A stretch of 64,000 nucleotides of DNA from Nelumbo lutea (taxonomy: Eukaryota; Streptophyta; Magnoliopsida; Proteales; Nelumbonaceae), in assembly GCA_022828595.1 (NCBI GenBank), contig JAKGHH010000007.1, forward strand, positions 41,277,973 through 41,341,972. The letters run 5' to 3'. Shown piece by piece: positions 46,701-63,402 of this stretch. The notes beneath the pieces were generated by a model. That model did not search any database, was not told where the DNA came from, and saw only the letters and a program-made list of their open reading frames with translations. Both the position numbers and the translations under genes were made by a program. Positions within the stretch are counted from its first letter, which is position 1. Each line of letters opens with the position of its first letter.

Positions 46701-49700
46701 CATTTTATGAGATTGCAAAAAAATTGCCATAGAAAAATGTTAAAATGTAGGTACATTTACCTTTGCTCTTTTTTTCTAAGGTTTCGTTTTGTTATCTTGG
46801 ATAGTAGCTCCAATTGGTTGTAGGTGCAGCCAAAATTACCTGCAATTACAAAAGAAATGTAAAGATGATAATTATAGTTAAGGGTCAATTTCTGTATGTA
46901 CTACAATTCCCAGAATCAAGAATGTTATGATTGATATTCATGCTGCTTAAGAAGTCAAATGGAGTGAGTTTCAAAACAAGATCTAGTTCCACTATAGGTA
47001 TGGAGAATCACAGCTATTTACTTGACCCAGAAGAGGGTTTTGACCCAGTACACATTAAAAATATACTGGAAAGACCATTTGGTTCTTGCTGCCTGCTGCT
47101 GTGTTGTGGGCCATTTGGATGGAGAGAAGCAGAAGAATCTTTGAAAACAAAATCTCTCAAATTGATGAAGATATCCAAAATATGACTAAAGATCTTTTCC
47201 TTGGCAATAACTTCAAATCTGTCTACAGACTAACTTTTTTGTATCTAGTAAGCTTTTGATGTTTTGTGAATGATATTACACTGTGCATTTGCTCACTGTA
47301 TTTGGAGATTCTCCCATTTACTTCACTAATCAGATTAAAATTAGCATGTTACAAGGAATGGCAAAGGACAAATAGGACAGAAAATTGGAACAATTATAAG
47401 TCCGTAAGAAAAAGGAAGTTAAAAAGAAAGTAAGTGAAATTAAATTTAGGGCTTGTGATGAGCATATCATAAATTAGGCACTAATGAGGGAGAAAAAGGA
47501 ATTTATAAACTAGTATAGATGAGAGAAAGGATAGGTAGAGCTATAAACCATGTTAAGTGCATTAAATAGGAAGATCAAAGAGTGGTAAAAGATGAGGAAA
47601 TCAGGCAAATATGGAGAAACTATTTGAACAGTTATTAAGTGAATATTGTTAAAAATAACATTTATCTTTGTAAAATTAGAATTGTTGAAGTGAAATAGGC
47701 ATTCAATTAGATGAAAAGGTAAAAACGTTAGGACCCGATGGGATTCCAATAGAAGCATGGAAAGGTAGGTTTTTAATGATTAACTAAGCTATATAATAAT
47801 ATAATGAAAGAAAAGAAGATGCCTAATGAACAGGGAAAGAGTAGTATGGTGCCTATATTTATGAACAAAGGTTACATACAAAGTTATAATAACTATCATG
47901 GGATTAAACTCATGAGCTGCAATATGAAACTTTAGGAGAGAATAATTGAGCACAAACTATGACATGAAACAAGTATATCAGAGAACCAGTTTGGGTTTGT
48001 TGTATTTCTTACTTTATGTGCCACAAGGGAACAAGTGTCCTTTTACCGTTTTATTGTAAAGTCGCTACATATAAATTATGTGCTGGAACCAGCAGTCTAT
48101 CTTTTGGCTTTCGGTCAATTCTTTTCCCTCTTCTCACTTCTTTATTCCCTTGCCTTTCTGTTTTTTCTTTAATAAGATGGTATCGGAGCAAAATTTCAGG
48201 GCCTGAGAATATGCTCTAATAGTAATACCATATTCTCTGATAGCACATATTCTCAACAGCAGAATTTCAGGGCCTGAGAATAGATCGAAGATGTCTGAGA
48301 CAACTTTTGGGGGTTATTATTCTTTCTTGGTCATGTGCCCAGAAAAAACAGTAACTATTCGAGAATATGTGGTTTGAAGATCCTTCTTTTAAGGAAAGGT
48401 TAAAGGTTTGGTGGGGAGAACTTAGACATCTAGGAAGGGAGAAAGTAGTGTCTTTTGCCAGGAAGCTAAAGAAATTAAAGGAAAAAAAAAGTTTGGAATA
48501 AAGAGCAATTTGGTAGGGTAGAAGAAACAAGGAGAAAATGGCATTAAGGATCGAGGAGTTGGATAGGAGGGAGGCCCTCAGAATCTTGTTAGAAAAGGGA
48601 AAGGTGGAGGCAAATGTAAGAATTGGAAGAGATCTTAAGGAAGGAAGAAATTCGTTGGAAATTCTAGATGTAAATGGCTTGTGGAAGGGGATGGTAATAC
48701 AAAGTTTTTCCATTCACTTGCAAATTGTACAAGTAAAAACACCATTCTTAGTGTGGATATTGAGTGTTGGGATATAAGAGATGGTCAAGAGATCACTAGG
48801 CTGTTTGTGAACCATTTTAAAGCTCTTTTCATAGATTTAGCTAGGGTGAGGTAAAGCTTGTCAGGTGTGGATTTGGACAGAATTTCAGAGGAACAATCCC
48901 TGATGTTAGAACGAAATTTCTCCCTTGAAGAGATTATGGAAGCTGTATTTTGAATGGAGAGATCCAAAGCCACTGGTCCAGATGGTTTCTCTATGGCCTT
49001 CTACCAAGAGTGTTGGGATTTTTTGAAATTAGACCTCTTGGAAGTCTTCGATAAGCCCTTTCATAAAGGGGAGATCCCCTAGTGGTAAATGCCACATTTT
49101 TTGCATTGGTGACAAAAAAAAAAAGTTGGGCAAAACCCCAAAATATTTCAGACCGATAAATTTAATTAGGAGTGTCTATAAAATCATTTCAAAAGTCCTG
49201 TTAGAGAAGATTAAACAAGTGCTACCTTTAGTAGTCTCACCCTTTCAGGTGCATTTATGGAAGGTAGGCAAAATTGTGGGTCAAATTCTAGTGGCTAATG
49301 AATGTTTTGTGTAAAAGAAGAAGAGAGGAGAGAGGTATTTGGTGTGCAAAGTGGATTTAGAGAAAACCTATGATCTAGTGGATTGGAAAGTTCTAGAATT
49401 ACTAGAGAGGCTTGAGTTTGGAATATAATGGAGATTATGGATTAAAGGGTGTGTCAGCTTTGTTCATTACTCAATTCTTATCAATGGTGTGGCAAAAGAC
49501 TTCTTCTTGGCTAGGCAAGGAACTAAGCAAGGAGACCCCTTATCAGCCTTCCTTTTCACCCTAGTGGCAGAATGTGGTGAAAGCAGATCTACAAGACCTT
49601 TTTAGGGGGTGGAGAATTGGTAGAAATCAAGTGGTGGTCTTCCATCTCGAATTTGTTGATGACATAATTCTGTTGTGTGAGTTCGTTAATCTACATTGGT

Positions 49701-52700
49701 GAGGAACCTGAAGTATTTGATTAATAACTTTGTGGGCCTGACTGGATTGGGGATTGATTGGAGTAGAAGTGGAATTGCAAGGATCAACCTGGAAAAGAGG
49801 TTGCTTCTGAGGTTTGCTGACTTATTGGGATGAGGTTAGGAATTGGCCTATTACTTAGTCTTGCCTTTGGGAGGGAACCTTAGGTCTGATGGGTTTTGGA
49901 AACTAGTAGTGCAAAGGTTTGCTAGGAAACTAGGCCATTGGAAATGGAATTGTATCTCTTTAGGTGGAAGAATCACGTTGATTAGAGCCACACTGGCCAA
50001 TCTTTCCATTTACTTCCTATCCACTTTCTGTATCCTAACTAGGATAGCAATGGCAACTTGAGAAATTCATGAGGGACTTCCTCTGGGAACTGGGAAATGA
50101 AAAGAAGGATCGCTTGGTAAAATGGGAACAAGTTAGCAAATCTTGGGAAACATGGTGCTTGGGGCTAGGAAGCATTGCCTCTAGAAATACAACTGTACTA
50201 GGTAAGTGGTTATGTAGATTCCCATTTGAGAGAGACGGGCTATGGCACAAGGTAATAGAAAGCATTCATGGTTTGGAAGGTAATGGTCAAGATGCTAGTG
50301 CTCCACACTCTTCTTCTGTTTCTCCTTGGAAAGCTATTCATGAAGTCTACCCTTTCTTTCTTAATTCCATCAGGTTTGATGTGGGAAGGGGTGATAAAGT
50401 ACAAATTTGCAAAGAATTGTAGTTAGGGGAGAATCCACTCAAAAACCAATTCCTAGACCTCTTTGCTCTCTCTACTTTAAAGGGTGAAACTATGTCTAGA
50501 CTAGTAACAGCTTCCCCAACTAGCTTAAGTTGGGATTTGGGCTTGAAAAGAGGGTTAAGGGTTAAAGAATGCCCTTCTTGGTCCACTTTTTTGACATTTT
50601 AGGGCAAGTGTTCATAGACCATTCCCTTGAGGACTCTAGAATTTGGGCAGCTTCACCAGATGGTCTCCTCACTTGTTCCACCTTTTTTAAAATCCTTGTT
50701 TTTCCTAACCCTCAGGGGGTGAACTTCCTGGTGGAAGAAATTTGGAGTAATCCTATCCCACCAAAAATTCAAGCTTTCTGCTGGAAAACTTTCTTTTGTA
50801 AGGTAAACACTTGTGTCATGCTGCAGGGAAGAAGGCCTTATGTTGCCTTTCTCCTCACTAGTGTTTCTTATGTAGGTGCAGTGGTGAGACTCTATCTCAT
50901 TTACTAATTTCATGTCCCTTTGTGCGTTGAATTTGGGAGTTTTTCTCTACTACTTTTGGGTGCAGTTGGGATCCCCCTCAAGATGTGGTGCATAGTTGCC
51001 AAGGTGATGCCTAGGCTACAAGACACCTTGGGAGTCTCACCTCGCCTAATCGCCAAGAAGTTTTCTATAGTGTGTTATAACAAACTTTTATATTCTTAAT
51101 ATTTTGAGGTTATAATTATAAAATTGACATTTTTAAACTAAAATACTCATTTTGTGTGTTTATATACTAATTTCTTTTTGTTATTTTCTTATTTGTTAGG
51201 GTTTAATCAACACAAACATTGCTAAATGCTGTATTGAACCCTCAAAGACTTCGAAACCTGAACTAATAAGTAAGAAAGAACATAAAATGTTGTCCAATCA
51301 ACATATTTTCTTCTTTTTCTTTACTAATTTTGTGTTTTTATATACTAATTTCTTCTTCTTCTTCTTCTTCTTCAACCTTTTCTTTTCTTCTTTTCCTATA
51401 ACAGAAATAGGTGTTCAACCCCTATATTTTTTGAATTTTCTTTTCTTTCTACTTTTTCTTCTCATGAATATGTTGGAATATGTTGATTTTCTATACTTTA
51501 ACATGAAGTTTATACTTTTCTTGTGAAAATTATGGATATTTATTAAGGAAATATGATTATGGAACCTAGGGAACTACCCTAGGATACATGTTTTTACTTG
51601 AAAAAAAAAAACCTAGTTGCCTAGGCAGCTAGGCAACTAGACACCCCCTATTGCCTAGCCTCACCTTGGCGCCTTGAAAACTATGATGTGGTGGTATAGT
51701 TCAACCCTAACTTCTTGATGCAATCATAGAAAAGAGGGAAGTTACTCTGGAGAGTGCATAAAGATAAAGGTGGTTTGGGAAGAAAGGAATAATATAATCT
51801 TCTCTAAAAAGAGCAAGTCTCTAGAGGAATTGATAGAGTGCATAAAGATAAAGGTGGCATTATGGGTAAAGACATTGGGTAGTTTCCAAATGTTCTTAGT
51901 TACTGACATCCAAAGATCCTGAACCGAATGGCACCATTTTTGAGAGAAAAGATAGGGTAAGGGTGGACTGGAAACCCCCAAAAACACTAAAGTCAAGCTG
52001 AATTTTGATGGGAACTCAATTGGAAACCCATGATTGGTAAAGTGGAAAAGTTTGGACAACCTGTTTTGATAAAAAAACTCTAAAAAAGAAGGAAGAAAAG
52101 AATGAGAAGAAAAGGTTTCAGCTGAGAAAGAGAGAGAACAGAGATAGAAGAGAATGGGAGAAGCTCATAATTAGGTCTGGCCGCCCCTTTCATTAGATTA
52201 TATACTCATAAATAAAAGAGAGTACAGAGACAAGTATGCCCTTAGTAAGTCGGCTACTTGTGAGAACTTAAAAACACTGTTAACTTAAAACATAAACTAA
52301 TGGGCCTAAAGCCCAATAACTCCCTAACTATGCTATGTAAATGAAAAACATGTTATATTAGCCCAAAACTCAACACTCCCCCTCAAGTTGGGAATAAATG
52401 TCACACATTCCCAACTTGCATAGATCATGCTCTAGCTTGTTTCTTGCAACTCCTTTTGTAAGAACATCAACAAGCTACAAGTCGGATGCAACATATGGCA
52501 AGCAAACTTCTCCGGATGTCACCCGTTCCCTTATAGTGTCTATCCACTTCTATATTCTTCATCTTATCATTGTTGAACTAGGTTGTGGGTAATGTTAATT
52601 GTTGCCTGATTGTCACAATATAGCGTCATAGGTTCTTCGACCTCAACTCCAATCTCCCCTAACAAGGAACGAATCCAAAGGAGCTTTGAAACACCATGTG

Positions 52701-55700: not shown

Positions 55701-57081
55701 AAACAAAGGTTCTTTTTTTGGTTCTATTCTTCTAGAACCATTAGATCCATTAGATCTACATCTAGATGTTAATCTGTGTAATAATGAGCCAATCATCAGA
55801 AACATTTATTTTAAATTTGACCATTGGATGAGAAATCAGTATAGTAGGGTGATGTCACATTGAATATAGACATTTCATTTAGGCTAAGTTTAGGAGTGCT
55901 TAAAAATAAGTGCTTATTCAATAATAAGCACTTATTTTGGGCCAGGACCACACCAATAATAAGCACTTATTTGCATTTGAGAAATAAGCACGGAATAAGA
56001 GCTTATTCTGATTTCTGAGAATAAGCATTTATTTGAGAAGCCCAAATTTTGGGCTTATTTTAAGTGCTTTTTTCCTTTCTGGTCTATCTTGACCCGCCAT
56101 GTCATTTTAAGTGCTTTTTCACCAAATGCTCATAAATGCTTATTAAAATAAACACTTGTTTTTAAGCACTTATTCAATAAGCATTTATATTTCAAATAAG
56201 CACTCCCAAACTTGGCCTTAATTGTTTCCGGTAGCAATGTCAATAACACAACACTGCTCAAAACACTTGTTGAACACCTAATCAGCATAAGTATCAACCA
56301 AACAAGTTTCATATCAAAACACTTATGTTGGCATTTTCACATGAAATGCCATTGCCTCTCTAAACGTTTAAACCTGAAATGGTAATGGTACCAAACACAA
56401 GCTCGATGGTCAAGTGTTTTGAAAGCAATGCATATCATGTAGGAGGATACTAGAGTCAATAATTGTAACATATTCAAATAGATATTCATAATAACTTATT
56501 TACAAGGATCAAAATTTCGCAATATATCAGCCAATATACTTATCGTATTGGCAGGCCACCAATACTACAAATAAGGATCTTTTGGGGTTTTGACCAATTT
56601 CAGGGCGTAGGCAGGCTTAAGACCAACTCCCCTGGCCAATTTTGAAAAGGAAAAGCTATAAAAAAATTATGGTCAGTTGAAACACTTGATACATAGGTTC
56701 GGCAAATATCTACCTTTCTCAAATTGGAATATCTGCTTTTAATACTTTTTTCTTACAGTTAGTTCTGTTCTTGATAATAAATAACCTTCTCAAACTTGAC
56801 TGACTATTACAAAAGCTTGGTGAAGGAATTACAATTTCTTCAGTCTGGTTCTTCTATTTGATTTCATTATTTATTTCGTAGAGAGAGACTTAAAAGTTTA
56901 ATTAGTAGTAAACTCTGTACAAAGCTAACAAATGCTGTTTCATTTCCTCATCCAACACATTGATGATTCTTTGTCAAATATCTTTTAAGTCTCCCATTTA
57001 TTTCTAATATTATATGCTTCAGGTTAAGAAAAACATTGAGGACAAAATATACCAACATGTAGATGCCCGCTCGAAGGCCAG
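28646..57081 (+). CDS. STR1: Thiosulfate/3-mercaptopyruvate sulfurtransferase, 5' part of the gene (8 exons)
   Basis: Two-domain rhodanese that transfers sulfur from 3-mercaptopyruvate or thiosulfate to thiol acceptors or cyanide; plant members act in mitochondria and cytosol. Exons are 28646-28747, 29298-29483, 34409-34468, 34936-34998, 40115-40239, 40353-40515, 46611-46670 and 57023-57081, every intron GT...AG. Joined they give 272 codons plus two bases without a stop. Order: Arg/Ser-rich presequence (residues 1 to ~35), linker, N-terminal rhodanese domain from [10 protein letters not shown] (~82) to ~225, then the start of the C-terminal domain ([13 protein letters not shown]). Family members are about 380 residues, so roughly 105 residues, including the catalytic Cys loop, lie beyond 64000. 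Intron lengths are 550, 4925, 467, 5116, 113, 6095, 10352 and >6919 bp. An in-frame TAA directly precedes the ATG. The family match is based on long recognisable stretches in every exon; expression is not known. Confidence 0.95.
29298..29483 (+). CDS. STR1: STR1 exon 2: linker and start of the N-terminal rhodanese domain
   Basis: 62 codons. The acceptor follows a pyrimidine-rich tract (TTTTTTTCCCCTCTAG) and the donor is AAG|GTGCTTTC, both phase 0. The second half contains the family-conserved [14 protein letters not shown], which opens rhodanese domain 1. Residue 58 is Met in the context RCAMASSIS; initiation there would remove the presequence, so it could be the start of a cytosolic form (inference). 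Confidence 0.95.
29484..30699 (+). other. STR1 intron 2, 5' part
   Basis: Non-coding; no element recognised apart from an A/T-rich stretch. Confidence 0.4.
30700..31657 (+). pseudogene. LINE (L1-type) 3' fragment with RNase H start, in STR1 intron 2
   Basis: + strand, frames broken. Zinc-finger-like reverse transcriptase tail ([10 protein letters not shown]...HFSLCVG), then [19 protein letters not shown], then an RNase H start with [20 protein letters not shown] and [16 protein letters not shown]. It ends in an AATAAA-containing 3' tail near 31650. It is 5' truncated, as usual for LINE insertions. The same family occurs at 37036, 48360 and 59994. Confidence 0.8.
31800..32126. repeat. Direct duplication of ~145 bp
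   Basis: AACTGAGTACAACCAATATGG ... CTTCCTTCCCTCCTTCCTC (first 19 bases of each end decide the match) occurs at ~31805-31943 and again at ~31977-32126, separated by an A-rich TTTAATAAAAG tract. Minus-strand LINE tails look like that tract. Confidence 0.75.
32127..33480 (-). other. Unrecognised open frames, possibly LINE ORF1-related
   Basis: Open frames occur on both strands (minus 33207-33455, 32774-33205; plus 32530-32952), none with a recognised domain. The minus-strand frames end towards an A-rich LINE-like 3' tail at ~31940, which suggests a decayed LINE ORF1 on the minus strand; this is inference. A 27 bp unit (GTGGCAGAACTGTGACTTCA...) is exactly doubled at ~32938-32992 and adds a nine-residue repeat to the minus frame. 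Confidence 0.3.
33722..34301 (-). mobile_element. Copia-like LTR remnant with PBS
   Basis: The minus strand shows GGTATCAGAGT (PBS-like, ~33722-33732) just after an LTR-like end CTATATCA (33735 on the + strand begins TGATATAGG). The LTR body runs to ~34300. Inside it CCACAGGC(C/T)CATGTTAAAA is duplicated at ~34137 and ~34202. The coding part is missing. Confidence 0.5.
34409..34468 (+). CDS. STR1: STR1 exon 3
   Basis: 20 codons, [20 protein letters not shown], a strongly conserved stretch of rhodanese domain 1 in plant STR1. The acceptor is ACATTAAG and the donor CAG|GTACTG, phase 0 on both sides. It lies 4.9 kb from exon 2 because of transposon material in intron 2. Confidence 0.95.
34936..34998 (+). 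CDS. STR1: STR1 exon 4
   Basis: 21 codons beginning [17 protein letters not shown]. The HIPGA.FFD motif is a standard rhodanese motif. The acceptor is TTATACAG and the donor AAT|GTGAGA, phase 0 on both sides. Confidence 0.95.
34999..37035. other. STR1 intron 4, 5' part with unrecognised ORFs
   Basis: A 174-codon + strand frame at 35637-36161 is rich in Lys and Glu ([20 protein letters not shown]) and predicted helical; a 115-codon minus frame lies at 36140-36487. Neither has a domain I recognise. The minus frame, with the sequence just below it reading [17 protein letters not shown], looks like a coiled coil of a TE structural protein. Probably transposon-derived; no function is claimed. Confidence 0.3.
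37312..37915. mobile_element. hAT-like MITE with CATAGTT termini
   Basis: 604 bp. Inverted ends are CATAGTTGTCAAGGTGCCC and, from the other side, CATAGTTTTCAATGTGCC. It is flanked by the 8 bp near-duplicate CTTGTGTC (37304-37311) and CTTGCGTC (37916-37923). The interior is A/T-rich and closely shared with the copy at 50991-51685. Non-coding. Confidence 0.85.
38990..39090 (+). mobile_element. 101 bp LINE 3'-tail insertion with 15 bp target-site duplication
   Basis: GAGTGTGGTTATGTT is present at 38975-38989 and 39091-39105. Between them lies only a LINE 3' UTR (CTTGATGTAATCCC ... TTAATAAAACTC) ending in poly(A), an extremely 5'-truncated target-primed insertion. The tail resembles the minus-strand LINE end at ~40700. 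Confidence 0.9.
39185..39911. mobile_element. hAT-like MITE rich in AACCC/GGGTT words
   Basis: 727 bp with inverted ends TAAGGCTCCAAGTCGGGCTG and, from the other side, TAAGGCTGCAACTTGGGCTG. The near-perfect 8 bp flanks are AAAATTGC (39177-39184) and AAAATTTC (39912-39919). Short runs of CCCTAA occur near both ends as part of the family's sequence. Non-coding. Confidence 0.82.
40115..40239 (+). CDS. STR1: STR1 exon 5
   Basis: 41 codons plus two bases, starting [18 protein letters not shown] and ending with IFSAARVW. The acceptor is TTGGATCAG. The donor GTAAGAG begins inside the second TGG of VWW, so the codon is split TG|G (phase 2); reading on without splicing meets a TAA at once. Only 113 bp separate it from exon 6, the one compact intron here. 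Confidence 0.95.
40353..40515 (+). CDS. STR1: STR1 exon 6
   Basis: One base completing the split Trp codon, then 54 codons beginning [18 protein letters not shown]. This covers the end of rhodanese domain 1 (VLDGGLPQW is where the catalytic loop region of an active rhodanese follows) and the inter-domain segment ending YQGKM. The acceptor is TTGCAAG and the donor ATG|GTATGG, phase 0. Confidence 0.95.
40690..41110 (-). pseudogene. LINE 3' fragment, minus strand, in STR1 intron 6
   Basis: On the minus strand it reads [20 protein letters not shown], the conserved region downstream of RT in L1-type plant LINEs, and then runs to a 3' tail (TTGATGTAATCTCTC, TTAATAAAAATTTTTC) at ~40700. There is no RNase H between them. 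Confidence 0.8.
41111..42743. other. STR1 intron 6, unassigned
   Basis: A/T-rich, no gene found. An (ATT)n microsatellite lies at ~42557-42583. Confidence 0.4.
42744..42990 (-). pseudogene. LINE RNase H C-terminus and 3' tail
   Basis: The minus strand reads [20 protein letters not shown] followed by [13 protein letters not shown] and a stop, the end of the LINE RNase H domain, and then an A-rich tail with TTCATTAATAAAATTG. 5' truncated. Confidence 0.85.
42991..44271. other. STR1 intron 6, unassigned
   Basis: Nothing recognised. The 43500-44050 part is G-rich on the + strand and of unknown origin. Confidence 0.3.
44280..45004. mobile_element. hAT-like MITE with CAGTG termini
   Basis: 725 bp. 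Inverted ends are CAGTGTTTTAAAAGCGC and, from the other side, CAGTGATTTAAAACGTGC. It is flanked by an exact 8 bp target duplication CACAAACC (44272-44279 and 45005-45012). G/C-rich sub-termini (AAGGCGCAAGGTG) surround an A/T-rich core; non-coding. Confidence 0.92.
45013..46011. other. STR1 intron 6, unassigned
   Basis: Non-coding. An A/G-rich stretch near 45590-45640 and short frames only; possibly LTR-derived, not proven. Confidence 0.3.
46012..46165. repeat. Snapback hairpin, 154 bp
   Basis: The left arm ATCTGCTTCCAAC ... CATTGGGAACATCTCCC pairs with the right arm GGGGAGATATTCCCAATG ... GGTTGGTAGCAGAT, about 70 bp each with a loop of about 12 bp. Small MITE-like unit; it could fold as RNA because it lies in a transcribed intron (inference). 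Confidence 0.85.
46611..46670 (+). CDS. STR1: STR1 exon 7: start of the C-terminal rhodanese domain
   Basis: 20 codons from [16 protein letters not shown] to TLDQ. The acceptor is CCGTTGCAG and the donor CAG|GTTAAG, phase 0 on both sides. It joins in frame with exon 6, and its sequence matches the beginning of the second rhodanese domain of plant STR1. Confidence 0.93.
47070..47240 (+). pseudogene. Small L1-type LINE fragment in STR1 intron 7
   Basis: The + strand reads [20 protein letters not shown] followed by IDEDIQNM, the post-RT region of L1-type plant LINEs, and nothing else of the element. Confidence 0.7.
47344..48005 (+). pseudogene. RTE-type LINE reverse transcriptase fragment
   Basis: The + strand, over shifting frames, gives [53 protein letters not shown] and [14 protein letters not shown] then ENQFGFV, the conserved N-terminal RT blocks of plant RTE elements. 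It stops before the catalytic motif. It is a different clade from the RNase H-bearing L1-type LINEs elsewhere in the gene. Confidence 0.8.
48006..48300 (+). mobile_element. LTR end with primer-binding site, plus strand
   Basis: A short LTR-like stretch ends ...TTTAATAAGA and is followed by TGGTATCGGAGC at 48178-48189, a one-base variant of the copia PBS. Right after it, AATTTCAGGGCCTGAGAATA is present twice (~48194 and ~48264). Confidence 0.5.
50991..51685. mobile_element. hAT-like MITE with CATAGTT termini, second copy
   Basis: 695 bp, inverted ends CATAGTTGCCAAGGTG and, from the other side, CATAGTTTTCAAGGCGCC. Exact 8 bp target duplication ATGTGGTG at 50983-50990 and 51686-51693. Same family as 37312-37915; both copies landed in L1-type LINEs at different positions. 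It includes a (TTC)n tract near 51350. Confidence 0.93.
52567..53885 (-). pseudogene. Copia reverse transcriptase and RNase H
   Basis: Minus strand: [40 protein letters not shown], then frame 53625-53140 with [38 protein letters not shown], the active site [24 protein letters not shown]; then [18 protein letters not shown], and RNase [29 protein letters not shown] and [12 protein letters not shown] has its active-site residues but is split by a frameshift at ~53625 and stops further on. Confidence 0.92.
54205..54850 (-). pseudogene. Copia GAG-pre-integrase and integrase fragment
   Basis: The minus strand reads [31 protein letters not shown], then, after a deletion in the core, [20 protein letters not shown] and VEVARSMM, the conserved third-acidic-residue region of copia integrase. 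The HTD and first Asp region is missing. Frameshifts separate the parts. Confidence 0.85.
55537..55878. other. STR1 intron 7, unassigned
   Basis: Non-coding; nothing recognised. Confidence 0.3.
55882..56217. mobile_element. PIF/Harbinger-like (Tourist-type) MITE, 336 bp
   Basis: Ends GGCTAAGTTTAGGAGTGCTT and, from the other side, GGCCAAGTTTGGGAGTGCTT, flanked by TTA at 55879-55881 and 56218-56220, the 3 bp duplication typical of this superfamily. Most of the length folds back on itself (AATAAGCACTTATT words). Confidence 0.88.
57023..57081 (+). CDS. STR1: STR1 exon 8
   Basis: 19 codons plus AG of a split Arg codon, containing [17 protein letters not shown], a conserved element of rhodanese domain 2. 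The acceptor is ATGCTTCAG and the donor GCCAG|GTAGTG (phase 2). The following exon, expected to begin with the family's FDGTAPEP-like segment, was searched for and not found before 64000. Confidence 0.93.
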
Positions 57082-57639
57082 GTAGTGAAGCCATTTATTG
57101 AATCATCATTATACCAATTATCCATTTATGCTTTATCGAGATATCTGTCTCATCTTTCTTTGTTTAATATACTGATCATTTCTGTGAGAAATTGCACTTA
57201 TGTGATATTATGTTTACTATCCCGGATTCCTGGTTAGTGCCAGTTTAATTTTCAACCACCACTATGCAACCTTCATTATTTAGTATAACAATTATTTATC
57301 AGTTGAAATTGTTTTGTTAATGTTTATACTCATTAACATAATCCTAAACTTGGAATCCTAGGAAACATAGTGAAATTATCTTTTACATCTTTCATGCCTG
57401 TAGAAAAGGAGTTCAGATTGGTACCTAACCAGAAAATTCGTTCTCAGACATAGCTAGGAAAGGGTTAGTTGACATATTGGGGGTTCTTCGCTTGAGAGTA
57501 ATACTTCTATGGGCTGGTTTCTGTACGTTGTTTTTTTTTTATGGTGTTGTCTCCTTGTTTTCTAATCCATAGGTCCTTTTTTTCCCCTAATCACTATCAC
57601 AAAATTCATTAATGATAAAAAATGAATTTTTTCTACCAG

Positions 57640-57949: not shown

Positions 57950-59993
57950 TTGATCAATAACAGCCTTGGAAGCATGAATCTACAAGCCACAAAAGATTTG
58001 TTGGAAGAAGAAAGTTTAAACACAGCTATTCTTTTCCTGGAAGAGGAAGCTTCTGCACCGGAAGGCTTTGGGAATGAGGAACGTAAGAGCGTAGATGTTG
58101 AGGTTGAACAATCAAGGATTATAACAGATTAACAGTCACTGTGTCACATAAGGGTAAGGCGAACCTAGCAGCAACTATAGAGGATGATCAAGGTACAACT
58201 ATTCCGGCAACCAAATCCCTTCCAGAAATCAACTATTAAAGGCGTTCAGTCTGGAGGGGCAGGAACCATATCTGCAGGTTTATGAAGAGGCACACACACA
58301 GGATAACCTAGAAAAGGTTTCTTTGTACACAGGGGTTGACAAGGTGTTGATTGAACCAAGTACATCCACAACTGAATCTGCCAGAGGGAATGGTCCTTGT
58401 CCAGAATTCTATTACTGATGCCCCAACACAAGTCCTAGCCCATTCATCTCCTGCCAGGCCAGGTATGTTTGTCCATTCGGGTTTTGATACTAACTTGGGT
58501 TCAATGCCTGAAGTAGGTACCCTGGCATCCCAATTGGACAGAACAGCTGGAGGTGAGGGAGTGGAGGTGGAAGGGGTTGAATTTGAAATAAAGGAACTTC
58601 TTTATTGAGAAAAGGACAAGTGAAGCAACTAGAGAGCATCTGCGAGCAAATCTGTGCCTTGTTGGAAGAGTATAAGCAGAAAGAAGATCAAGAGTGCAGG
58701 AGAAGAACCATTTAATAAAAGCAGGAAGAAAATGAAAAGATCAAAAGTAGAAAGACTACTCTCAGACATTGAAGGGGATTTAGAATTCAGTGGAAGAGGG
58801 GAGAGGGAGAAGGCTCCTAAGTGAAGGACAAAGGGTGTTCGAAGGGTGTCATTCTACAACTATGTTGATGAAGATCATTAGCTGGAATGTGAGAAGTCTA
58901 GGAAGTGCGAGGTAGAGAAGGTTGATAAAGAATTTGTGGAGGGAAAAAGGCCTGACATTGTGTTGATACAGGAAACCAAACTTACAAATCTAGATAGAAG
59001 ATGGGTTAGAAGTGTGTGGAAGGCAAGAGGTGTGAATTGGTGCTCAACTCCCTCTTGGGGAGCCTCTGGGGGTTTAGTTACTCTTTGGAGAGAGGATGTG
59101 ATAGAATCATTAGAGGAACTGATAGGTAGTTTTTCTATCTCTTTAAAGTTTAGGATGGTGGAGGATGGTTTTACTTGGGTGTTAACCAATGTGTATGGGC
59201 CAAATAATTATAGAGAGAGATGAATTTTGGGAAGAGCTTTATGGAATTTGAGGCTTATGGGAAGGTCCCTGGTGTTTGGGGGGAGACCTCAATGTAATAA
59301 GGTTCCTAAATGAGTCAAACAATCCCTAGCAGTCTATCACAACTAGCATGAGGAGGTTTAATGACTATCAATAATTGTGATCTAAAGGAATTCCCTTTTC
59401 TAAAGCCAACTTTACTTGGTCAAACTTCGAGGAGAACCTATCTTGCTCAAAATTAGATAAAGTTCCTTTTCAATGAAATCTGGGAAGCAAAATGGAGGGG
59501 TTTGCTGGCTAAAGCTTTGCTTAGAGTTACCGAGAAACTTTTGGGTTTGGACCTAGACCTTTTAGGTTTGAAAACATGTGACTAACACACCCGGACTTTG
59601 TGCCTAAGGTTTTCAGAACTGATGACAGCAGTCTATGGAGTAGAGAAAGCTAAAGAAATGGGGATTGATAGGCTGATTATTGAAGGTGATTCAAAAGTAG
59701 TTGTGGGTTGGCTGAAAAAGGGGAAGGTGTCATATGGAAGTTAAGGAATGAGTTCAGGCACTTCAAGCAGATTCCTAAAGACATGATGATCCAAATCAGG
59801 CGGATTAGAACATCTACAAACAGTATGGCTGATGGTCTAGCAAAGCAAGGAATTCAGAGACAACCTATGTTCTGGGCAGTTATGTAAATAGTGAATGGTT
59901 TCTGTTTGGGCTTTTTGTTTTTGCCCACAACTCCTTATTGTATTTCTTATTTTTAAACTAATGAATCAATTTTTGTGTTGCTGATAAAAAAAA
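57950..59993 (+). pseudogene. L1-type LINE with endonuclease joined to an RNase H tail (STR1 intron 8)
   Basis: Plus strand. An ORF1-like end without a recognised domain (57950-58860) precedes the endonuclease start MKIISWNVRSLGSAR at 58868. This continues with DIVLIQETKL (catalytic Glu), WGASGGLVTLWREDV, LTNVYGPNNY and GDLNVIRFLNES. Around 59470-59640 the sequence jumps to the RNase H end: [40 protein letters not shown] and FWAVM with a stop, then a poly(A) tail at 59984-59993. The whole reverse transcriptase is absent. Frameshifts throughout. Confidence 0.85.
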
Positions 59994-60576
59994 GGTTTAA
60001 ATAAGTGATACCTTTAGTAGTCTCACCCTTTCGAGGCGCATTTGTGGAAAGTGGACTTAGAGAAAGCCTATGATCTAGTGAATTGGAGAATTCTTCTATA
60101 ATTACTAGAGAGGCTTGGATTTGAAGCAAAATGGAGATTATGGATTAAAGGGTGTGTCATCTCTGTTCATTACTCAATTCTTATCAGTTGTGTAGTAAAA
60201 GACTTATTCCTGACTAGGCTAGGAATTAGACAAGGAGACCCCTTATCACTCTTCCTTTTCACCCTAGTGGCAGAGGGCCTAAGTAGAATGGCGGTGAAAG
60301 CAGATCATCTACAAGACCTTTTTAAGGGATGGAGAATTGTTAGAAATCAAGTGGTGGTCCCTCATCTCCAATTTGCTGACGACACAATTCTATTCTGTGA
60401 GGACATTAACCTACAATTGGTGAGAAACCTAAAGGATTTCGTTGATAACTTTGTGGGCCTGACTGGATTGAGGATTAATTGGAGTAAAAGCGGAATTGCG
60501 GCGATCAACCTAGAAGAGAGGGAGCTTTTGAGCTTTTCTGACTTATTGGGTTGTGAGGTTACAAACTGGCCTATTA

Positions 60577-62359
60577 GGCCCCATTTGGTATCAATTCTGG
60601 GGATTCTCATTCTCAGAATCCTTTCAAAAAAGAATGGATCCTGAGAATTTTCATTCAGATAATCACCAGTCTTGTTTGGCACAGTCATTTGATTCCTGTT
60701 TCTCAAAAACAGAATCACGTTTGGCAGCAATCAATTTCTTGAAATCAATTCTCTGACCGATTGAGTGCTTACATTTTATTCAAAGTGGGGAAGCTGTTCA
60801 TTAAGCCTTGTAGCAACAACATAGCTAGTATACGCTCCTAAAGTTCACATGGATAAACACTCATTCCTTGACACAATAAATATATAAATAAAAATGTCAC
60901 ATGGCTGATTTTAGTGTTAATAATTTAAAACTGTGCAACCACTTCCAATAAAGAGCTTCCTTCCCATTCTTTTTATGGTGTACATAGAGGTAGGAAATGA
61001 GAATTATGTAGATTTGGTATAAAACTTAAATTAAGGTGATTAGATCCTTCACCACACAATAAGCCTACTGTGTGAAAAGAACTCTGATATGCTGAAAACT
61101 TACAGAAAGGTTACAATGGCACTAGAAAGAACAAGAAACCTGGAGAGAACTATAATCAAGCATTTTATGTTTACTTGATGGAAGATTATTCTGAGACAAA
61201 AGGATTAAGAATCTATTGAGAACCCCAGCAAGATCCCACTGCAACCCTCAACCAAAATTAACCAGTTTCCTGACAAACCAGGATTACCAAACATCAGCTA
61301 TGCAGTGGGGTACACAATCACCAAATAAAAGATACAAGAGCATCCGGTACATAGGAAATGTAAGTCTCATTGCTGAGGCCAAATGTTGAATTCAAAAATA
61401 GTTAAAAAAGTGATTTCAATATTTTAGGTCAATTCAGTCAATGGGCAAAGATCTAAGAAAATAATTAAGTACAAACAGGTGCAGCATGCTAAAATGAAGA
61501 ATTATCAATCACATAACAAATCAGATAAAGAAGGGCACAAGGCTAAGAACAGTCTTCTATGACTCCGAAGTGTGGGCACATGGCTGGAAAGGTTCTGGTT
61601 TCAGTAAGTGAGCACGTCAATAGGCTCGTTGCAGCCAGATTGCAGTTTGATATCATGGGGGTCGAAACCGTGTTGGTGGCTCATACTGATGCTGTTGCTG
61701 CTAATTTGATTCAGACCAATGTTGATACCTGAGACCATCAGTTCATATTGGAAGCAACTAACCCCAATTTTAAAGGTAAGAGCATAGCCACGATTCTTGG
61801 TGAAGCTATGTCTGTCGGAAAGACTGGACCTGATGAGGACAATTGGTTATTGATGGCCCGATTGAAGACCTTCTCTGAATGCATAGTGGACGAGATTAAG
61901 AACTTGAACAATGGGGAAAAAGAGAAACAGAGGAGATTGCTGCAATCCAAAACAATGAAAAGAAAAAACAAAACGCATTGCTGCAAGCCATGCACCTGTG
62001 TAGATGGGAGAAACAGATAGAGCCGTTGGAGTCCTTGGGAAGGAGAAAGACGTTGGAGAGGGTTTCCAACATTTTAGGGCATTTTACTCAATCAAGATAT
62101 ACATTTGATATAGAATGACACAATTACCCACACTTGCACATGGGACTATTGCACATGTGTTCATTATTTACTATAGGACGTAGCGAGAATTGTGATTCTC
62201 CAAAGTGAAAAATTTTCACTTTGGAGAATAGTGCCTTTAAACAGAAATTCTCATCCTAAAAAAAGAGAAAGTACAAATACTCTGTCCCAAACAAGATTCT
62301 CATCCAAAGAATCCCAGAATCACCAAAATTGATTTTTTGGAGTGATGCCAAATGGGGCC
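60577..62359. mobile_element. PIF/Harbinger-like non-autonomous element carrying a gene fragment
   Basis: 1,783 bp. Ends GGCCCCATTTGGTATCAATT and, from the other side, GGCCCCATTTGGCATCACTC, flanked by TTA at 60574-60576 and 62360-62362. The related LINE reads GGCCTATTACTTAG without the insert at 49845-49858, so boundaries and duplication are confirmed. No transposase; the interior includes an isocitrate lyase fragment at 61562-61942. Confidence 0.93.
61562..61942 (+). pseudogene. Captured isocitrate lyase fragment
   Basis: The + strand frame reads [55 protein letters not shown], a TGA stop at 61730-61732 where the family has Arg (CGA to TGA), then [33 protein letters not shown], a short deletion, [20 protein letters not shown] and [15 protein letters not shown]. 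Isocitrate lyase is the glyoxysomal glyoxylate-cycle enzyme splitting isocitrate to glyoxylate and succinate; CGH belongs to its KKCGH active-site signature (first Lys lost). Only about 125 of ~575 residues are present, so it cannot be functional. The fragment lies wholly inside the Harbinger-like element, so it was carried there by the transposon. Confidence 0.92.
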
Positions 62360-63402
62360 TTACTTAGGCTTGCCTTTGGGAGAGAACCCTAGTAGTGATG
62401 GATTTTGGAAGCCAGTAGTGGAGAGGTTTGCTAGGAAGCTAACCCTATGGAAACAGAACTACATCTCTCTAGGTGGAAGAATCACATTGATTAGAACACT
62501 AACCAATCTTCCCATTTACCTCCCATCCACTTTTTGTATCCCAACTTGGACAGTAGGGCAACTTGAGAAATTCATGAGGGACTTCCTCTGGGAAGCTAGT
62601 GATGAAAAAAAGGATCACCTGGTAAAATGGGAAGCAGTTAGCAAAACCCAAGGGAAAAGGGGGCCTAGGGCTAGGAAACATTGCCTTAAAAAATATTGCT
62701 TTACTAGGTAACTGTTTATGAAGATTTCATTTTGAGAGAGACTAGCTGTGGCACAAGGTAATAGAAATCATTCATGGGCTGGAAGGTAATGGCCGGGATG
62801 CTTTGCTCCGCAGTCTTCTTCAGCTTCTCCTTAGAAAGCTATATATTAAGTCTCCAGTTAGCAAAGCAACTGGGTGTCAGACGGGTTGAAGTGGAAGGGG
62901 ACTCAAAAGTAGATATCTCATGGACAAACTGAAACAGATGTACTCCCTGGACTCTCAGTCATAAGTGGAACAGATTGCTATGGACATAGAGGCTGAATTT
63001 AAATGGGTTAGCTGATTTCCTTGCCAAACAAGGGGTTATGAGGCAGTGACTGTTTTGGGCTTCTATGTAATTGGGGTTTGAAAAATTGGGGATGACTTTC
63101 TTGTCATCAAACTGTATTGATTAATGCTCTAATTGAATCTAATAAATAAACCTACTTTCTTCTGATCAAGAAAAGATAATGAACACCATATGAAGATTTC
63201 TCATTTCTCTCTACTCTTTGGTTTTCTCATATACTTGTTTCATGTCATAACCTTTGCTTATTTATTCTCTTCCAATGATTCATATTATGGTTCTTGACTT
63301 TAATCCCATGACAATTATTACAACTGAGTAAATTGCTTTTGATGACTTTGAATTTACTACATTGCCCCTTCATTGCGATTTTCTTAATAAAAAGTAAGTG
63401 TT

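Follow-up and report, generated by a model that had tools for sequence, protein, structure and literature searches.

Capture of host gene sequence by PIF/Harbinger-type transposons has been described in maize, rice and grapevine. The Pack-PIF elements of maize and rice are described as non-autonomous, carry pieces of genes, and are flanked mostly by TTA/TAA (Gisby and Catoni, 2022, PMC8903248); the maize example given there is multi-copy, with 72 Pack elements averaging 535 bp. For grapevine, PIF transduplications comprising host exons and introns are reported for Pifvine-3, with cargo that is in some cases common to several copies (Benjak et al, 2008, PMC2528002). From lotus, 1,447 Pack-mutator-like elements have been reported, and PIF elements were assigned 2.7% of the genome (Ming et al, 2013, PMC4053705); no report of a Pack-PIF in lotus was found in the open-licence literature. 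According to a 2026 review, DNA transposons may be able to acquire unlinked fragments by a mechanism that has yet to be discovered (PMC13317346).

The element described here, from Nelumbo lutea, resembles the maize and rice Pack-PIFs in its gene cargo, its TTA duplication, its conserved ends and the variable interiors of its relatives; unlike the maize example, the form that carries a fragment of isocitrate lyase (ICL) was encountered a single time, measures 1,783 bp, and has pieces that match three separate places in the genome (compare PMC8903248). Like Pifvine-3, it is a PIF element with host gene sequence, but the Pifvine-3 cargo is described beside ORF1 and transposase regions, whereas the tested frames of the lotus element contained no transposase (compare PMC2528002). 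The Pack-mutator-like elements come from the same host genus and also carry genes, but belong to the Mutator superfamily and not to Harbinger (PMC4053705). The initial annotation of this locus had considered gene capture to be less often noted for Harbinger-type elements; the capture itself was borne out, but capture of this type was already in print (at least in PMC8903248 and PMC2528002). Harbinger gene capture is already known, and the lotus case is an unusually well-documented one; what is new here is the interior, a mosaic from three sources.

The window (the whole stretch of DNA analyzed, 64,000 nucleotides) contains a non-autonomous PIF/Harbinger-type element of 1,783 bp at positions 60577-62359. 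Its parts and immediate surroundings are as follows:

57020..57082, + strand: last exon match of sulfurtransferase 1 (STR1) before the element (tblastn)
59981..62760, + strand: LINE remnant split by the element (limits are those of the stretch compared, not the LINE ends)
60574..60576, no strand: left target-site duplication TTA (a single TTA in the other LINE copy)
60577..60593, + strand: left terminal inverted repeat (repeat search; 72 genome sites at ≤2 mismatches)
60577..60764, + strand: family left end, element 1-188 (whole or part matches at at least 37 other places)
60774..61187, + strand: captured piece 1, element 198-611 (C4:34830013-34830419, 85%)
61188..61530, + strand: captured piece 2, element 612-954 (C7:36831283-36831658, 81% with gaps)
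61545..61939, + strand: captured piece 3, the ICL exon fragment (C1:149840601-149840985, 88%)
61940..62018, no strand: 79 bp between the ICL piece and the family right end (self-match only at E ≤ 0.001)
62019..62359, + strand: family right end, element 1443-1783 (parts matched by other family places)
62343..62359, − strand: right terminal inverted repeat (repeat search)
62360..62362, no strand: right target-site duplication TTA (a single TTA in the other LINE copy)

The terminal repeats, GGCCCCATTTGGTATCA and GGCCCCATTTGGCATCA (60577-60593 and 62343-62359), differ at one of their 17 bases; a search of the window with the terminal repeat at ≤3 mismatches returned two matches, compared with 0.14 on average over 100 shuffles. 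PIF/Harbinger elements have short terminal inverted repeats with a consensus of the type GG..CC..TTTGG, with which the repeats found here (16/17 bp) agree, as does the TTA on both flanks (60574-60576 and 62360-62362) with the 3-bp TTA/TAA target-site duplication of this superfamily. Two other classes of gene-carrying elements were considered and rejected: Pack-MULEs have target duplications of ∼9–11 bp, whereas the duplication here is TTA only, and Helitrons have neither terminal inverted repeats nor a target duplication, whereas both are present. When 8 of the 48 open frames of the region were searched against Pfam, no transposase was detected; ICL alone was above the cut-off, accompanied by one match at chance level (E = 0.16). 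An element lacking a transposase of its own in the frames tested, with captured pieces accounting for most of its interior and a host-gene piece whose source is identified in the same genome (ICL, on contig C1), corresponds to the Pack-TYPE pattern, and the element is almost certainly a mosaic Pack-PIF, a non-autonomous Pack-TYPE member of the PIF/Harbinger superfamily that belongs to a lotus family. A 72-aa frame at 61900-62115 was considered as a second captured gene and rejected: one of its ends lies in the ICL piece and the other in the family right end, and its last 67 residues had no Pfam match. The family right end also contains a palindrome (62195-62229), whose two 17-bp arms match perfectly around a loop of 1 bp, and a similar sequence is present in a relative, L025.

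The element interrupts a LINE. A LINE reverse transcriptase domain was detected upstream (PF00078, E = 7.8e-9, for 60102-60644). A second LINE copy in the same window (49343-50254), with 82% identity to the flanks when these are joined, continues across the insertion point and has one TTA there. The empty site and a 3-bp duplication are thus seen in a related copy. On a larger scale, STR1 gave eleven matches on the + strand, seven of them within the window and four in the next 40 kb (tblastn; the limits are match limits obtained with an approximate probe protein, not splice sites). The exon match following the element lies at about 71475-71591 (window coordinates, in the flanking DNA, + strand), so that the element is intronic, the intron being ∼14 kb, and the ICL fragment is in the sense direction of the gene. 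Gaps between exon matches of STR1 reach 5–14 kb (29355-57082), and the open frames within them were judged by eye to be LINE and copia remains. A joined pair of exons matched rhodanese (PF00581, E = 4.8e-8), with rhodaneses and mercaptopyruvate sulfurtransferases among structures as its solved relatives; by sequence, STR1 is here the rhodanese-type sulfurtransferase 1. The mycorrhizal ABC transporter also called STR1 was rejected in view of these rhodanese matches; a single Walker A-like match and a single ABC-signature-like one were seen, ∼6 kb apart, in frames that looked unlike a transporter. The initial annotation had proposed a 1.78-kb element with PIF/Harbinger ends and TTA flanks, inserted in a LINE within an STR1 intron and carrying, in sense direction, ∼125 codons of ICL at 61562..61942. 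All of this stood, with the fragment slightly displaced: its similarity to ICL spans 61545-61939, and the piece comprises 131 codons (61547-61939).

The ends of the element belong to a family. The pattern of TTA plus terminal repeat occurs at 72 genome sites at ≤2 mismatches, the two of the window included, whereas the reversed pattern, serving as control, occurs at none; the terminal-repeat family is evidently present elsewhere in the genome. Equal 3-bp flanks were found in eight of the nine elements counted (the one in the window, e015, e030, e155, L014, L017, L039, L034/L054, and L021/L065), seven being TTA/TAA and one GAA; e015, which is the same element as L057, has unequal flanks (TAC/TAA). 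This count leaves out uncertain readings among the 27 loci L051-L077 (L060, L061, L068, L069, L072, L075, and L076; of these, L061 reads TAA/TAA at 1,410 bp and L069 reads TTT/TTA), the place C1:8596264-8600453, and the pairs inferred from places (C3:8193885-8196572, C5:35022199-35024441, and C8:34168368-34171824), whose flanks agree in 3/3. Comparison of seven family elements with one another revealed similarity mostly at the ends only. One relative with GAA flanks, 1,193 bp long (L014:325-1517), contains a carboxylesterase (CXE) fragment recognizable by its similarity to PDB 2o7r (E = 1.2e-14), without a Pfam match; a stretch of 941 bases from it returned 27 matches when its own is counted. 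Several of these are partial and lie in clusters, a hint that elements of this type may have been amplified together with their cargo. A piece of LINE RNase H was detected in e155 (PF13456, E = 8e-5), and another lies inward of the left end of L071 (E = 3.7e-7), for which a right end was not found. The Harbinger-type DDE transposase expected of a relative was encountered in L073, as a remnant: the locus has the same left end followed, at 871-1365 from it, by DDE_Tnp_4 (PF13359, E = 2e-6; 28.0 bits at a cut-off of 24.8), while neither its right end nor an intact transposase gene was seen. Altogether, Pfam scans of the relatives' frames gave matches in 1/10 and 2/10.

The ICL fragment is recognized by Pfam (PF00463, E = 3.9e-43, with its stop codon entered as X) and corresponds to ICL residues of about 205-339. 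A search with it through the genome (843.7 Mb, 63 contigs; all four candidates scored) returned four matches, itself and three on C1: C1:149840601 (88%), C1:77570400 (79%), and C1:77546824 (75%). The translation of the first is 99% identical to the Nelumbo nucifera ICL P0151 over 535 residues, and that of the second 98% to the Nelumbo paralogue P0218 over 541; the third is a broken copy. The first two matches place the host in Nelumbo. The closest, at C1:149840601, is taken as the source gene, and residues 11-545 of it are encoded on a single exon. ICL homology ends at both edges within this long parental exon, and no ICL sequence flanks the fragment. As both edges lie inside one exon, the loss of introns, to which the initial annotation had looked for guidance, is not informative. 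The search did locate the parental gene that had been postulated; of the other copies that had been envisaged, it yielded no second ICL-bearing element anywhere in the genome (4/4 candidates scored). Related ends with varied interiors are multi-copy; the ICL-bearing form was found once. Two further observations concern the ICL sequences. A 34-bp imperfect direct repeat (74%; 61916-61990) spans the end of the ICL piece on its right side and the following 79 bp; it could have arisen by slippage at the junction or by chance. In the broken ICL copy (L004, C1:77545324-77548707), which lies ∼24 kb away from the paralogue, an insert of 830 bp with the ends GGCGGTGTTCGG.../...AACACACCC and TAA on both sides (by eye) splits the sequence at about residue 211, ∼20 bp from the start point of the captured piece; this insert is perhaps another Tourist/Harbinger-like insertion.

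ICL had been the only cargo recognized in the element, but pieces matching C4 and C7 are present as well. Of the 126 candidates from a genome search with the left 970 bases, 40 were scored, and these comprised the element itself, 37 family left-end places (all within element 1-188), one place on C4, and one on C7; these single-place counts hold among the 40 scored, and further copies are possible. The corresponding search with the right part gave 33 matches (29/29 candidates scored), with the family places over element 1443-1783; for the 79 bp at element 1364-1442, the same search of the genome (29/29 scored) yielded only the self-match at E ≤ 0.001. Origin of the C4 and C7 pieces from one locus was rejected, as the 3.4-kb stretches around C4:34830013 and C7:36831283 have no sequence in common; neither has similarity to the ICL locus. 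When the element was compared with both places, including ∼1.5 kb on each side, no family end was found beside them. The chain of three captured pieces accounts for ∼1.15 kb of the 1.78 kb and is tightly joined: 9 bp separate it from the left end, pieces 1 and 2 abut directly (0 bp), and a 14-bp spacer precedes ICL. No family end sequence was seen in these spacers. Substitution levels of the three pieces are 10.0, 10.3, and 9.1%, a divergence compatible with similar age, although the ICL gene is under constraint and the other two sequences probably are not. At a rate derived from published lotus figures (median Ks 0.5428, 65 million years; PMC4053705), the age is estimated to be of the order of 12–18 million years, with wide error.

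Compared with its source gene, the ICL piece differs at 36 of 395 aligned bases and lacks 12 nt; an in-frame TGA (61730-61732), its sole stop, reads CGA in the gene. Changes are found in 7 of 68 near-invariant ICL columns, whereas 189 ICL homologues (the sequences of 480–620 aa among 232 proteins) average 0.30 such changes, with no more than two in any one of them (of 69 columns), the columns having been defined on the same 189 sequences that serve as the yardstick. Among the residues lost are two with roles in catalysis, the first lysine in KKCGH and the arginine in VARTDA. The 37 codon-wise differences divide into 20 assigned to the fragment, 10 assigned to the gene, and 7 assigned to neither. 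The 20 changes in the fragment are distributed 10/7/3 over the codon positions and alter the protein in 17 cases; the assignment used the paralogue (L003), and as a change can be placed in the fragment only where both genes have the same base, third positions are under-counted. Pairwise dN/dS was 0.56 when the fragment was compared with the gene, as against 0.13 for the two ICL genes; the former value, though well above the latter, is <1, so that the decay may not have been fully neutral. Judged by its stop codon, its missing nucleotides and the loss of conserved residues, the ICL fragment looks dead; it is unlikely to have a coding role and is decaying.

We consider it likely that the locus represents a lotus Pack-PIF, with an interior from at least three unlinked host sequences, at a TTA of a LINE within the STR1 intron. 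The ends, the target duplication, the empty site, the family, the three matching places and the damage to ICL make up the observed part of this explanation. For the remainder, a break within an element, such as one left by a transposase cut, would have been repaired by copying pieces, the polymerase switching templates several times, and Harbinger transposase acting in trans would have placed an element of the lotus family into the LINE. The shape of the junctions, on which template-switching repair is proposed as the capture mechanism, gives it a slightly better than even chance. That the interior was filled in a single episode of repair synthesis across three places on three contigs, which would unite unlinked pieces without any fusion of neighbours, is a more tentative idea and on balance doubtful. 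Because the ICL-bearing element was found once, the interior could have been rebuilt before its arrival or in place. The alternative in which nearby family elements use their outer ends and carry along the DNA between them, repeated rounds producing a mosaic, draws on the proposal first made for Pack-CACTA and then widened to Pack-TYPE elements of all DNA superfamilies, and on a maize Pack-PIF subgroup with pieces of two genes (both in PMC8903248), and family ends are indeed numerous. It would, however, require rounds at three places and the loss of all internal ends, while the spacers measure merely 9, 0, and 14 bp and the pieces have diverged about equally; we regard it as rather unlikely.

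That the ICL piece was copied from RNA rather than derived from DNA would agree with its lack of introns, but the source region, too, lies on a single exon (residues 11-545), which makes missing introns uninformative; moreover, the two adjoining pieces bear no sign of an RNA origin, and the sequence beyond the right edge is rich in A without forming a plain run of A. Such an origin is very improbable. No more credit, and if anything a little less, can be given to retention of the piece for a function, either as a source of small RNAs against ICL or as an STR1 exon. Its sense direction within a gene and a dN/dS below 1 could be cited in favor; however, STR1 transcripts would be sense, not antisense, to ICL, and the divergence, the stop, the missing 12 nt and the lost near-invariant residues speak against such a role. 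As the terminal repeats are short, they might also be a chance pair around an old ICL pseudogene with no transposon involved, but this notion is already refuted by the 72 genome sites against none in the control, by longer ends common to the family, and by the empty site in the related LINE copy, leaving it a negligible probability.

An ICL exon piece in the intron of another gene could mislead gene annotation. There is no settled account of the way in which cut-and-paste transposons acquire host genes, and the three-source mosaic bears on how such capture happens: its three matching places lie in one genome, its edges are resolved within a few bases, and its pieces have diverged similarly. 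With the places named, the edges resolved and the divergence alike, the Pack-PIF of lotus makes models of neighbour fusion and of template switching testable in a slowly evolving genome.
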